64,000 nt of DNA from Isoetes taiwanensis (taxonomy: Eukaryota; Streptophyta; Lycopodiopsida; Isoetales; Isoetaceae). Shown in pieces: positions 54,619 through 64,000 of this stretch. Every line of letters starts with the position of its first letter. The stretch's first letter is position 1. The stretch lies in assembly GCA_021234155.1 (NCBI GenBank), contig JAJEKV010000206.1, forward strand, positions 682,001 through 746,000, given 5' to 3'. Made by a program: the position numbers and the translations under genes. Below the pieces are notes generated by a model. That model saw nothing but the letters and a program-made list of their open reading frames with translations, did not search any database and had not been told where the DNA came from.

Positions 54619-54726
54619 AGAGAGAGAGAGAGAGAGAGAGAGAGAGAGAGAGAGAGAGAGAGAGAGAGAGAGAGAGAGAGAGAGAGAGGAGAGAGAGAGA
54701 GAGAGAGAGAGAGAGAGAGAGAGAGA
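54619..54726. repeat. (AG)n microsatellite, ~107 bp
   Basis: AG run with one GG interruption near 54690. It separates the truncated fourth macrosatellite unit from the 3' end of LINE-TC copy B. Confidence 0.98.
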
Positions 54727-54761
54727 AAGAAGTGAAGTGATGTGTTTTATTGTGTCTTTTG

Positions 54762-54775
54762 AGACCATCAGGTCT
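54762..54775 (-). promoter_or_regulatory. LINE-TC 3'-UTR hairpin, copy B
   Basis: Plus strand AGACC, loop ATCA, GGTCT; same loop as copy A. Confidence 0.55.
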
Positions 54776-54949
54776 ATAAGACCAATTACATAATATAGGT
54801 TTCTAGTTATCATCTGACAACCCCTCACAAGGATCGTCATCACTTTCCTCTCTTTCCTCGTCATGTCAAGTACATTTCTATAGCCTTAATTCTGCCTCTC
54901 TCATCAAGATCAAATCAATCGTGAAGCTACCCACTATTGTAGTGGCATA

Positions 54950-57326
54950 TCAAAAACCGTTGCATCTTTGCTTATGTGTATGCCAAAGGGCGCCCCTCGG
55001 GAGTTTGGTATTTGGGCAATGAATGATTGCATGTTCTTCATCTTCTACCTGATCTGCTCCACACATCCGACATGTTCGGTATTCCCGTGGTATATTGTAC
55101 CATCGTCCTACTTCCACCCCTAGGTGATGTGCACTCAACCGCATTCTGCATATTGCGTGCCTCTTGCTCATGGAGATGCTCTCATTGAGATAGCTCATTT
55201 CTTGCAAGGACGGGTTCATCTTCTCCCTATAGTGCGACATTTTCACTCCTGGACTATACCAGATCCTTGCCAGTGCCGTCTCCTTAACCCATTCATAAAT
55301 TCTGTTTTTGTTAGCACCGAGGTCTTCTATCTTAAGTCCCCATTTGTGCATCCAGGTCAAACCATCCGCATACCACCCTTTCTCGAACGTTTCCCTCAAT
55401 GCTAACCTTGGGTAACTGTTTTCTTCTAGACCTCCGAGCTTACTTAAATATCCCAGATATCGGCACAGGGCCTCACATTCCAAGGGCATCATGCCACATT
55501 CCGCCATCATCATCTCATAAGGTGTTTGTACTTTGACTCCAAGCTCAGTACGTAGAAATTTCTTTTGTATCTTCTCAATCTTTTGCCATAGTTCTAGAGA
55601 TAGTCCTGGCCCCCATACCTCACACCCATATAATACTACAGCTTGTACAAGGGTTTTAAAGAGCATCTTTTTTAATTCGAATCTCCATATTTCTGCTTTC
55701 AAGCACTTTTTCTGCATAGCGAATAGAGCCTTTAGCCCCCCATTTACCCGTTGTTCCACTGCTTGATTCCATCTGAAGTGTTTATCTACAATCAGCCCCA
55801 AGTATTTGTATGTTTGTGTTATTTCGACCCTGTCTCCCTTGTATGTGAATGTAAAATTCTGATCCAGTGTGGTCCCAATCAGTACAATCTTAGTCTTCAT
55901 CAAGTTTACCTGCATCCCTGTTGTCTCGCAGAAAGATGCTAGAACATCTAAATGTTTTTGCATCCCCTCTCTACTGCGTGCAAGCAGAACTATGTCATCG
56001 GCATATAGCAGAATACGTACAGAATACCCTGCTACTTGGGTGCCACCCCCCCCAAGAGTGGTTATCCATCTTTCTAGGTCATCAATAAAAATGCCAAACA
56101 TAGTAGGGGATAGGGGGCATCCCTGCTTCACTCCTATATTGCTCTCCACCTGTTCATCACACTCTCCAATGTATGGGAAGGAGAGCTGCACCAACACCCT
56201 CTCGTATAACAATTTCACTGCGCTCCTTAGGTGACTAGGCACATCAATTCTGTCCATGCTTTCCCACAGCTTATCTCTACTCACTAGATCAAATGCTTTA
56301 GTAAAGTCAACAAAGCCTGCAAATAACGGTTTTCGAGTTCCCTTCACTGAATCCATCATAGCCCTGAATGTTACCAAATGGTCTATTGTGGATTTTTTCG
56401 GCCTAAAGCCTGCCTGCCCTTTAGCACGTACATCTTGCGTCTCTGCCCAAACACTTATCTTATGTTCTACGATGGTTGCAAAAAGTTTTGCGAAGAGATT
56501 GCTCATCATAATCATGCGATAGTTACTTGCTTCCGTTTCACTTCCCGACTTATGTTGGGAACCACCCTATTGATCTGCCATGTTTTTGGGAACCCTTCTT
56601 GCGCTGCCACATTAAACATTTCAGTTATTTTTCCTTGGACCCCCTCTCCTGCCCATTTGAGCATTTCGGCCACCAGTCCCATGGTATCTGCCGCTTTTCC
56701 ATTTGCTAGCTTTTCCAGCCCTTCTCAGATGTGAATACAAAACCTGTTGTAATACCATTCAGTTCTTGTGTGATGCCATTCACGTGATAAAGCTTCTTCA
56801 CCTGTGCAATGAGATCTTCCACCTTTAAGTGCTGCTGGGTTTGCTTGCCTTGTTTCATGCGTTTCCAAAATTTTTGCGGATCTCTCAGTAGGTCTACAAC
56901 TAGCTCATGTTGTTTGTGACGTACAAATTCCCTTTTTTTGCATTTGGTGAGAGTTTTAAACTCTTTGATTAGTCGTACTCGCTCCAGACCATGGGCACTT
57001 TTATATTGTTTTCTTTTGTGTTGGCATTCCTCATCAAACCACCCTTTGCAAGGTAATCCTTTTTTCTTGCGCCCTGAGTTAAAACATGTGCTTGCTGCTT
57101 CCAGTACCAGCGAGGTCAAAACCTCACTTTTCCCCGCGGCACTTTGTGGCCAAGCTGCATTTGCCACTTTTGCTTCACAGTATGCCTGATATTTCTCAGC
57201 CTTCCATTTGTTAATATGTATGCCATACTCTCTTTGTTGTTCTGATGCTCCTGTGGATCCTGCAATCCTCACATGTGCTATTATAGGTACATGATCTGAT
57301 TCACTTCTTGCTTCCGAGATGTACAA
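54950..57326 (-). pseudogene. LINE-TC ORF2, copy B: endonuclease end, linker and reverse transcriptase
   Basis: Two frames make up the copy: 57326-56706 (SESDHVP, then GLPCKGWFDEECQHKRKQ and FWKRMKQGK) and 56515-54950 (reverse transcriptase). Between them the frame shifts at least twice (about 56706 and 56520-56570). The RT part keeps QAGFRPKKSTIDH, FVDFTKAFDLV, GVKQGCPLSPTMFGIF, LLYADDIVLL (YADD at 171-174 of this frame) and CRMCGADQVEDEEHAIIHC. Amino-acid differences from copy A are spread evenly and mostly conservative, as expected for independent descendants of active elements. Confidence 0.9.
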
Positions 57327-57372
57327 ATCCTGAACATGTTCTATAAACTGTTCTGATGCAATAAAGTAATAA

Positions 57373-57469
57373 AGAGAGAGAGAGAGAGAGAGAGAGAGAG
57401 AGAGAGAGAGAGAGAGAGAGAGAGAGAGAGAGAGAGAGAGAGAGAGAGAGAGAGAGAGAGAGAGAGAGA
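57373..57469. repeat. (AG)n microsatellite, 97 bp
   Basis: Uninterrupted; shared border between the 5' end of copy B and the 3' end of the long copy. Confidence 0.98.
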
Positions 57470-57474
57470 TTGGG

Positions 57475-61953: not shown

Positions 61954-61969
61954 GAGAGAGAGAGAGAGA
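61954..61969. repeat. Short (AG)8 tract
   Basis: Sits between the truncated 5' end of the long copy and the 3' end of copy C. Confidence 0.9.
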
Positions 61970-62003
61970 AATAGAAATAGAATTGTTTATTATTTCGTCT
62001 GTG

Positions 62004-62017
62004 AGACCATAAGGTCT
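62004..62017 (-). promoter_or_regulatory. LINE-TC 3'-UTR hairpin, copy C
   Basis: Plus strand AGACC, loop ATAA, GGTCT; stem kept, loop changed by one base from copies A and B. Confidence 0.55.
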
Positions 62018-62043
62018 AGAAGACGTCTACAATTGCACAAAGC

Positions 62044-62924
62044 TTAGACAAAATCATTCGCGTGATGTGCTTCAATAGCAACACCCGCCTCTACTCTCTT
62101 CTCTGAATTGAATAATTTTAGTAAGTGTTTATATGACGGAATCAATATTTCTCTTGTAATATAGACTTCTTTTAGGTAACAACCGCTCGTGTTGGGTGGC
62201 ATGGCAAAGAAATCTTGCAGAGAGTTACACTTAATTCCATACTTGAGTCTGAGATGCACATATTTTGAGCAGAACACTAAGTGGGCTTCATCCTCAATTT
62301 CTTCTTCCATACATACCTTGCAAGTACGCCTGTGCCTAGGAACATTCCCCCATCTTCCTACTTCAACTCCAAGGTGGTGAGAGCTTAGCCTCAACCTACA
62401 AAGTGTATGTCTCATAAATAAGGACGATGTTTCACCCAGGTGTGATGCTTCGTCTAGATTGGGATTTATTGTTTCTCTATAGAACAACATCTTTGTTCCA
62501 TCGTCTGACCACAATTTGCGATGCACTATTACTTGAATCCAGCTACGTAATTCTGACTTATCTGCTGGTAAATCATTCAAGGATGTCCCCATTTTTTCAA
62601 CCACTTATCAATATTTGCGTACCATCCTTTCAAACTACTTTGTATCATAGCTCGACGAGGAAGACTATCTTCACTCATAGCTTGTACCCTTATCAAGTAG
62701 TTTAATGCCTTACACAACGCTTCTGCTTCTAGAGGGATTAACCCTGCTTCAACAAGCATCATAGCATATGGAGTTTGTAGCTTTACCCCTAACTCTGTCA
62801 TGAGGAACTTTTTCTGTATTTTTTCTACCCGTTTCCAAGTATCCAAGGAAAGACCCGGCCCCCATACCTCACAACCATAAAGAACAACCGATTGAACCAA
62901 AGGCCTGATATAATTTTTCTTCAA
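62044..62924 (-). pseudogene. LINE-TC ORF2 C-terminal part, copy C
   Basis: Two overlapping frames, 62924-62577 (VVLYGCEVWGPGLSLDTWKR, ELGVKLQTPYAMMLVEAGL) and 62604-62044 (LRLSSHHLGVEVGRWGNVP, CKVCMEEEIEDEAHLVFC), are joined by a single frameshift near 62580-62600 (KWLKKWGHP against EKMGTSLNDLP). The RT palm motifs lie upstream of the truncation and are absent. Confidence 0.88.
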
Positions 62925-62987
62925 GGTCCAATCAAGAATGTTTGCTTTCTTACATTTACGTTGTAAAATAAATGTAAGAAAGCAAAA

Positions 62988-63168
62988 TCTCTCTTCTTCT
63001 CTCTCTCTCTCTCTCTCTCTCTCTCTCTCTCTCTCTCTCTCTCTCTCTCTCTCTCTCTCTCTCTCTCTCTCTCTCTCTCTCTCTCTCTCTCTCTCTCTCT
63101 CTCTCTCTCTCTCTCTCTCTCTCTCTCTCTCTCTCTCTCTCTCTCTCTCTCTCTCTCTCTCTCTCTCT
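62988..63168. repeat. (CT)n microsatellite, ~170-180 bp
   Basis: Longest dinucleotide tract in the window. The phase is CT on the plus strand, opposite to the (AG)n tracts at 44-62 kb, and it borders the plus-oriented copy D. Confidence 0.98.
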
Positions 63169-64000
63169 TTGGTCTTGGAAACTTAAGGTAAAACTTTATC
63201 GGACACTAGTGCAGTGTGGTTTTGTATGGATGCGAGATATGGGGCCAAGTCTCCCACAATGCCTATGGGATGATATGGAACAAGTCCTGAAGAAATTTTT
63301 GAGATTGGAGTTGGGAGTCAAAGCCCAAACGCCTTATCCCATGATGTTGGCTGAAAGTGGACTTCTACCTCTTGAAGGGGAAGCCATATTGAGGTGTGTT
63401 ACTTATCTTAAGAGAGTGTTAGCATTGGATGAATCTCGTCTTGTACATAAAGCTCAAGTTATCTAGTAAAGAAAAGGGAATCTTGCATGATGTGGAGAAT
63501 TGGCTTAGAAAATGGGATATATATTGGGAAGAAGTGGTCTTGGTTTTCGGACCTAAGACAATGGATTTCGGATAAGATACAAAAACGATTATGGTCGCAG
63601 ACCTAAGACAAAAATGATTCTATACAAACAGGGGTATAAATCCGAACTTGCTACCAAAGCTATGCACTTACATGAAAATATCTCAATACTGTAAGAGACA
63701 CAATATTTGTGGGATCCGCCTCAGTTCATCACTTGGGTATAGAGGTGGGGAGATGGGGGCATATTCTCTGAGAGACCAAAGATCTTGTAAGCTATGTGGC
63801 ACAGGTCAAGTTGAAGACGAGGACCATGTACTACTTAGTTGTATGGCCTATCTTTTGACTGCGCTGCGAGATAAATATGGTATTAATCATATAGATCTCC
63901 CAACTCTTTTCACATTAGAGGGGGATGTGTTAGGAAAATATGTGATAGAACTTTTACATCATAGAGATACTTGTTTGGAATCTCAAACTATTGTCAACGT
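63169..64000 (+). mobile_element. LINE-TC copy D, plus orientation, runs off the window
   Basis: It begins directly after (CT)n within the RT-to-C-terminal linker (LPQCLWDDMEQ, KKFLRLELGVKAQTPYPMML, LPLEGEAILRC) and is frame-broken after 63466; later pieces include VEVGRWGHI-like words and CKLCGTGQVEDEDHVLLSC. It is close to the long copy in sequence. Its 3' end and tail are outside the window. Confidence 0.88.

Follow-up and report, generated by a model that had tools for sequence, protein, structure and literature searches.

A large and diverse family of long interspersed nuclear elements (LINEs) of the land plant Isoetes taiwanensis very probably integrates, in a fixed direction, into pre-existing (TC)n/(AG)n microsatellites, with TC on the sense strand. 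The family, here called the TC family, has an apurinic/apyrimidinic endonuclease (APE) and an L1-like open reading frame (ORF) 1, and was recognised in a 64-kb stretch of contig JAJEKV010000206.1 (the window, to which all positions refer unless a locus is named). Sense tracts lie on both sides of the copies, the orientation is fixed, the tails carry a hairpin, empty and filled sites exist, and the copies form tandem clusters. The (TC)n is mainly a pre-existing target and not only a tail, because the tract of a repeat termed R is native: four R loci are empty, and one (L048), as well as the pair L037+L030, is filled by a LINE.

Tracts and LINE copies in the window

The window was scanned for dinucleotide runs, and perfect AG/CT runs of at least 12 bp were counted. 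Every one of them abuts an end of a TC-family LINE; the only other dinucleotide runs are (CG)/(AC) at 37597–37690. The scan bore out the (AG)n tracts given in the first-pass annotation of this DNA (54619–54726, 57373–57469 and 61954–61969); the remaining perfect runs are (AG)n at 44263–44369 and 45093–45134 and (CT)n at 62998–63168. The features are as follows.

39090–41676, minus: copy A, TC family, other repeats bordering both ends; hairpin 39129–39142
39164–41185, minus: part of copy A ORF2, used as the reverse transcriptase query
44263–44369, minus: (CT)n, sense of copy E, at its 3' end (tract scan)
44370–45092, minus: copy E, 5'-truncated, ORF2 C-terminal region and 3' untranslated region; hairpin 44403–44416
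45093–45145, minus: (CT)n at the copy E 5' end, on the native tract of a tandem-array unit
54619–54730, minus: (CT)n at the copy B 3' end, missing in sister array units
54731–57372, minus: copy B, truncated at the end of the ORF2 endonuclease region; hairpin 54762–54775
57373–57469, minus: (CT)97 tract, copy B 5' end and long copy 3' end
57470–61953, minus: long copy, nearly full length; variant hairpin AGGCC/GGCCT at 57475–57489
58284–60782, minus: open part of long-copy ORF2, APE-type endonuclease and reverse transcriptase (Pfam matches)
60804–61910, minus: long-copy ORF1; its C-terminal part supplies the first row of profile A3 (match to L1 ORF1p)
61954–61969, minus: short (CT)n, 16 bp, long copy 5' end and copy C 3' end
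61970–62968, minus: copy C, truncated after the reverse transcriptase domain; hairpin 62004–62017
62941–62986, no strand: 18-bp inverted repeat with a 10-nt loop at the copy C 5' end, a snap-back-like junction
62998–63168, plus: (CT)n at the copy D 5' end
63169–64000, plus: copy D, truncated after the reverse transcriptase domain, extending to ~64160 outside the window

Copies E, B and the long copy carry sense (CT)n at both ends, and copy D begins at 63169–63170, immediately after (CT)n, as had been read from the window at first pass. The same annotation described four copies in a row with a tract at each border. This holds for the borders between B, the long copy and C and for the start of D; it does not hold for the 5' end of copy C, which lies at an inverted repeat, and the tract between the long copy and C measures 16 bp only. 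Its further statement that every 5' truncation falls at a microsatellite stands for E, B and D and fails for C, where the inverted repeat is met by a tract of the other direction. The inverted repeat looks as if a cDNA end had folded back, primed itself and then joined the CT tract.

Past the window the cluster goes on: at least two further copies on the minus strand adjoin (AG)125 and (AG)127 tracts. At 64349–64384 (window coordinates, just past the window, in locus L055), a copy is apparently reduced to its last ~36 nt, between two AG tracts. The 3' end of copy D, at ~64160, has only the short pyrimidine run TTTCTCTC before another inverted repeat. Copy A abuts an inverted repeat resembling a miniature inverted-repeat transposable element (MITE; 37691–39091) at its 3' end, and at its 5' end a repeat that is also present at 25611 and 33402. 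A (CG)(CA) tract followed by the MITE-like repeat (arms 37691–38163 and 38604–39091) occupies 37597–39091.

Ends of the copies across the genome

The genome (1,658,258,908 bp in 1110 contigs) was searched with the reverse transcriptase (RT) of copy A; the fetched loci are labelled L001, L002 and so on. A loose first look gave 60,195 candidates; 66 were scored, and 67 rows were listed. Among the matches listed, six other copies are 86–95% identical to copy A, one is 75% identical and the rest 53–59%. The (CT)n tract is common to copies whose RTs are only 53–59% identical to that of copy A. The 30 loci sampled were chosen as the best RT matches rather than at random, and L001, which is copy A itself, was dropped from the surveys of both ends.

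The 3' ends were read in 46 sense tails, obtained with a hand-made direction filter that was designed after inspection of the tails; tails whose hairpin fell outside the search patterns, such as the ones that precede the L032 and L046 tracts, do not belong to the 46. A CT repeat of at least 10 bp was found within 75 nt in 39 of them, and an AG repeat in none (0/46). None of the 46 tails read has the poly(A) end expected of the plant L1 clade. The typical terminal hairpin is GTCT-nnn-AGACC-loop-GGTCT-nnn-AGAC. Its inner stem was part of the search pattern, so the 99% pairing found there is no evidence, while the outer stem was left free. Among the 42 distinct rows of the 46 tails, 70.5% of the outer-stem cells are paired, and both-side changes occur in four of the five pairs. 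Pairing over the whole hairpin falls from 85% to 26–45% when the partner is slid. When compared with 500 shuffles, pairing, double-change cells and the covariation score exceed all 500; two other measures, both-side-changed pairs (140/500) and further pair types (151/500), are not above the shuffles. A conserved 3' stem-loop, the mark of stringent-type LINEs, is present, and its recognition by the RT is putative. Short repeats made by the element follow on the 3' side of the hairpin (CACTT, CATTT, TATTC or TTTC, depending on the subfamily), and then CT.

The exact hairpin core occurs genome-wide 467 times on the forward and 477 times on the reverse strand, against 8 and 7 for the backward control. 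It is followed by (CT)6 after 16–46 nt of any sequence in 256 of the 467 forward hairpins (control 0). The reverse-strand (CT)6 figure, 1502, counts every gap length and was not used. No core is followed by (AG)6 anywhere in the genome (0/944; 0 forward, 0 reverse). Maximal (CT)n of at least 30 bp beginning with C number 2,967 on both strands; because these are so few for 1.66 Gb, chance adjacency of hairpin and tract is estimated to be negligible.

The 5' ends were surveyed in the window and in L002–L030. Fifty-four ORF2 fragments were found, of which nine lie at a locus edge, 15 have ORF1 continuing upstream and 30 have a visible 5' end; one of the latter (window 9271–10236) is a plant L1 and was set aside, leaving 29 truncated 5' ends. 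Sense CT of at least 10 bp lies within 60 bp of 22 of these ends, AG in one (copy C) and neither in six. At random points, sense CT was met 446 times in 20,000 (2.2%) in the same loci and 148 times in 20,000 in the window. The first-pass annotation had proposed to collect copies with the 39164–41185 RT and look for tract enrichment over background, and such enrichment is clear from 22 of 29 as compared with 2.2%.

For 10 copies with a full-length ORF2, 2.2 kb of upstream sequence was fetched. In nine of them, (CT)n of 68–181 bp precedes ORF1, and there is no AG tract; in the tenth, L035, the copy is disrupted before its 5' end, seemingly by a poly(A) plant L1 inserted into ORF1. The 5' end of the element was assumed to be the edge of the tract. 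Some long copies have hundreds of bases between the tract and a recognisable ORF1, and several others start right after the tract, at ~0–20 bp from the apparent ORF1 start codon (L040, L037 and those that come after the tails of L012, L025 and L028). On the far side of the upstream (CT)n, a LINE tail is present in L032, and there is none in the other eight of the nine long copies. Two outcomes contrary to a (TC)n target, namely that most copies lie away from microsatellites or that the tract is confined to the 3' side, had been named beforehand. Neither was found in the sample, given the sense CT at most tails and truncated 5' ends on the one hand, and at 22 of 29 truncated and 9 of 10 full-length-ORF2 copies on the 5' side on the other.

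Copies often follow one another. In 15 of the 46 tails, the coding sequence of another copy in the same direction lies within 176 bp of the tract, and apparent full-length starts follow six more (judged by eye, from ORF1 matches further down). Short interspersed nuclear elements (SINEs) that are tRNA-like, or their 3' ends (GACGTWAAAATAC or close forms), also lie between CT tracts beside LINE tails: L011 at ~1287–1085 (minus), L030 at ~3641–3826, L010 at ~746 (minus) and L047 upstream of R. These four loci hint at a SINE that shares the target of the LINE, although genome-wide (CT)6 stands behind no more than 27 of the 544 forward copies of the motif, a weak count.

Empty and filled sites

The sequence shared by the 3' flanks of L007 and L019 is part of repeat R, the core of which has 34 exact occurrences in the genome; 14 of these were fetched. 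R (L042, L044, L051, L054 and others) resembles a fold-back element (GCATGTGGCCAA ... GGTTGGCCACATGC) whose centre is a pyrimidine tract. Four of the 14 sites are empty (L042, L044, L051 and L054), consisting of R-left, the pyrimidine tract and R-right, with no LINE. R-left was found by BLAST in the first three and by eye in L054, which has (TC)112. A LINE tail, or a LINE and a SINE, stands before R-right in five others: L041, L046 (by eye), L047, L048 and L050 (the copy of L019). The filled site of L048 comprises R-left, (TC) of ~170 bp, a truncated LINE with a hairpin tail, TC and CCCT repeats, and R-right; the LINE entered the TC part of the R tract and not the CCCT part. L037 and L030 are overlapping stretches of one contig; together they show R-left and (CT)117, next a long copy of the LINE, then a SINE and (CT)n, and last a diverged R-right, which was under the BLAST cut-off and was recognised only by eye. 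A comparison of the four empty sites with L048 indicates that the microsatellite was there before insertion.

A second site is provided by the tandem array at 45124–54617, which has a 2.77-kb unit in ~3.4 copies that are 88–94% alike and which meets (AG)n tracts with LINE copies at both ends. The sister units (47900, 50660 and 53448) have a short native CT tract and no LINE. Both copy E and the upstream LINE of L019 start at this native tract of the array unit. The specificity for (TC)n that had been suspected from the window is thus upheld by most sampled 3' and 5' ends, by just over half of the forward hairpins of the genome and by the empty and filled site.

A number of observations weigh against insertion into pre-existing (TC)n. 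Seven of the 46 tails have no sense tract at the cut-off (copy A, one tail of L003, L006, L009, L014, L016 and L017); several of them have only TC3–4 or a mixed pyrimidine run, and copy A, bordered by other repeats, lacks a tract at either end. In 211 of the 467 forward hairpins, there is no perfect (CT)6 in the 16–46 nt interval tested. Seven of the 29 truncated 5' ends are without a sense tract (A, C, two in L003, L005, L009 and L027). Among these, the first end of L003 and those of L005, L009 and L027 lie in plain DNA, the second end of L003 has a TC run just under the cut-off, and copy C is the exception described above, in which the inverted repeat is followed by plus-strand (CT)n, that is, AG in the copy's own direction. 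Other DNA stands before R-right in five of the 14 R loci (L043, L045, L049, L052 and L053), which match neither the empty nor the filled pattern. Three of the four empty sites have a short or mixed R tract, compared with ~170 bp on the left of the L048 LINE, which implies that the tract grew during or after insertion, or that it was already long in that R copy. Entry of copy B into a pre-existing array-unit tract was considered and rejected, as three sister units have no tract at that point. Finally, the two flanks come from different repeats at L019 (array unit U and R) and at copy E. These mixed flanks, together with the copy B 3' tract that has no counterpart in the sister units, suggest that exchange between tracts probably also happens.

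If the (CT)n were a simple-repeat 3' tail made by the element, its place at 5' ends would arise only where new copies follow older tails. Plant RTE and green-algal L1 families do end in simple repeats, as listed in Table 3 of PMC3747384, element-made short repeats precede CT in the tails, and 15 of the 46 tails lead directly to another copy. However, these short repeats vary between subfamilies and stand apart from the CT run, eight of nine long copies have no LINE tail beyond their upstream (CT)n, and the R tract is native at four empty sites. The comparison of L048 with L044 and L051 refutes a self-made tail as the whole story, which leaves this explanation very improbable. It is just as hard to believe that insertion is non-specific and that copies were moved beside the tracts by later rearrangement, microsatellites being prone to recombine and expand. 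The mixed flanks of L019 and of window copy E would agree with such a history, as would tracts of ~100 bp that exceed three of the four R tracts in empty sites. Against it stand the fixed orientation (CT in sense, AG 0/944), the position of the junction right after the tail, which is identical across divergent subfamilies, the existence of a complete filled site with matching halves, and the plant L1-like sequence in the window that has no such tract.

A broader target deserves more consideration, although it too is doubtful: any pyrimidine-rich microsatellite (TC, TTTC or CCCT, with CA or GT beside it) might serve, (TC)n being merely the commonest. The tail of L029 leads into (CCCT)n; the tract passes over into (AC)n in L008, L013, L020 and L024 and into (GT)n in L023; L006 and L009 sit in mixed pyrimidine runs; and the R tracts themselves mix TC and CCCT. 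However, the repeat within 75 nt of 39 of the 46 tails is pure TC of at least 10 bp, and it was the TC part of the R tract, not its CCCT part, that the LINE of L048 joined.

Proteins, proposed mechanism and similar LINEs

The family is an APE-type LINE, with an RT, an APE-type endonuclease and variable 5' truncation with a constant 3' end. ORF2 of the long copy matches PF00078 (E = 3.8e-34), PF14529 (E = 2.5e-06, just over its cut-off) and PF03372 (E = 4.3e-05, just under its cut-off). The window ORF1 alone had no match in PDB or Pfam. When the C-termini of 10 ORF1s are combined into a profile, it matches structures of L1 ORF1p (best hit 2ldy, E = 1.1e-06), single rows of this profile staying under the Pfam cut-off. 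ORF1 thus appears to carry an L1-type RNA-binding domain and resembles the ORF1 of L1 or Tx1 type. An RT tree was built from 19 family RTs, three R2s, the plant L1 of the window and one L1 chain from PDB (8c8j), which we take to be human L1. The family forms one branch (100/99), and the two L1s pair (98/95) to the exclusion of all 19 family RTs; with only two L1 rows and long reference branches, the place of the family in the LINE tree is weakly fixed. By RT position, and with these few references, the family lies outside the branch of plant L1 and human L1 and so apart from the plant L1 clade. In profile searches, the best R2 chains score above L1. No relatives outside the Isoetes taiwanensis genome were found in a search of genome-contig and viral-contig collections. 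The window also has plant L1-like fragments without TC tracts (8052–11613, 16503–17492 and 29752–30745) and, at 4526–6000, a degenerate satellite with units of 19, 38 or 57 bp (GAGCCACCGTGGCATGTTG), which has a look-alike beside the L033 tract.

In the mechanism proposed, the endonuclease would most likely nick the (GA)n strand; we infer both the strand nicked and the part of the protein that chooses the site. The freed 3' end would pair with the 3' end of the element's RNA, which is rich in pyrimidines (hairpin, short repeats, then UC), and reverse transcription would start there. Early stops would give 5'-truncated copies, and rejoining to the remaining (TC)n would leave a tract on both sides. 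The next copy could land beside the last one, the flanking tracts presumably being re-used and renewed. Target-primed reverse transcription at a (GA)n nick would account for the fixed direction, the junction after the tail, the tract on both sides and the rows of copies.

Kibi and Koshi are animal LINEs of the Tx1 group with a microsatellite target, which is of TC type for Kibi. The TC family shares with them an APE-type endonuclease and a microsatellite target, and it works like a microsatellite-specific Tx1 LINE, being a possible member of that clade. It differs from both in that its host is a land plant, and the likeness is drawn from their described features.

Among APE LINEs, site-specific members are said to exist only in Tx1 and R1, according to PMC13295347. 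Target-specific insertion by an APE LINE, as expected of the Tx1 clade, is found here, but it is common to R1 and therefore not diagnostic. Other LINEs described in PMC4640811 are likewise specific for a dinucleotide or other microsatellite, namely Togen for (TG)n and some HERO families; unlike the APE-type TC family, they are placed there in or near clades with a restriction-like endonuclease. The plant L1 clade also consists of plant APE LINEs, and one monocot lineage has a conserved 3' stem-loop too, as described in PMC3747384. However, 224 of the 233 flowering-plant L1 families in Table 3 of that paper end in poly(A), whereas the TC family has no poly(A) and an RT outside the plant-L1/human-L1 branch. 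Bov-B and other RTE LINEs, with Sauria SINEs, resemble it in the 3' simple repeat and in SINEs that use LINE machinery (PMC13295347); in contrast, in the TC family, target and end match. Celine, a centromeric LINE of poplar, is a plant LINE with a strong preference of place, but it prefers centromeric chromatin, and the word "microsatellite" is absent from the main text of PMC11288735. A search of the PMC literature, which takes in neither subscription papers nor Repbase reports, turned up no description of a plant LINE specific for TC.

A more far-reaching interpretation, which we regard as unlikely, is that the (TC)n tract serves as the landing pad and at the same time as a promoter or 5' leader, so that (UC)n RNA would prime on the next (GA)n. 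Long copies that start right after the tract would then be transcribed from the microsatellite in which they landed. Each insertion would restore or lengthen the site for the next one in a docking array, and the family would add a third, hitherto unrecognised lineage to the two APE groups with site-specific LINEs, Tx1 and R1.

On the preferred reading, in which (TC)n is a pre-existing target, this seems to be a mobile element of a plant that selects its landing pad, something known mainly from animals. With both empty and filled versions of R to compare, the mechanism is open to direct test. Many copies in divergent subfamilies with a single microsatellite target form a natural series for how a LINE keeps its target over long times, and the family may explain where many of the long TC microsatellites sit in this genome and why they recombine.

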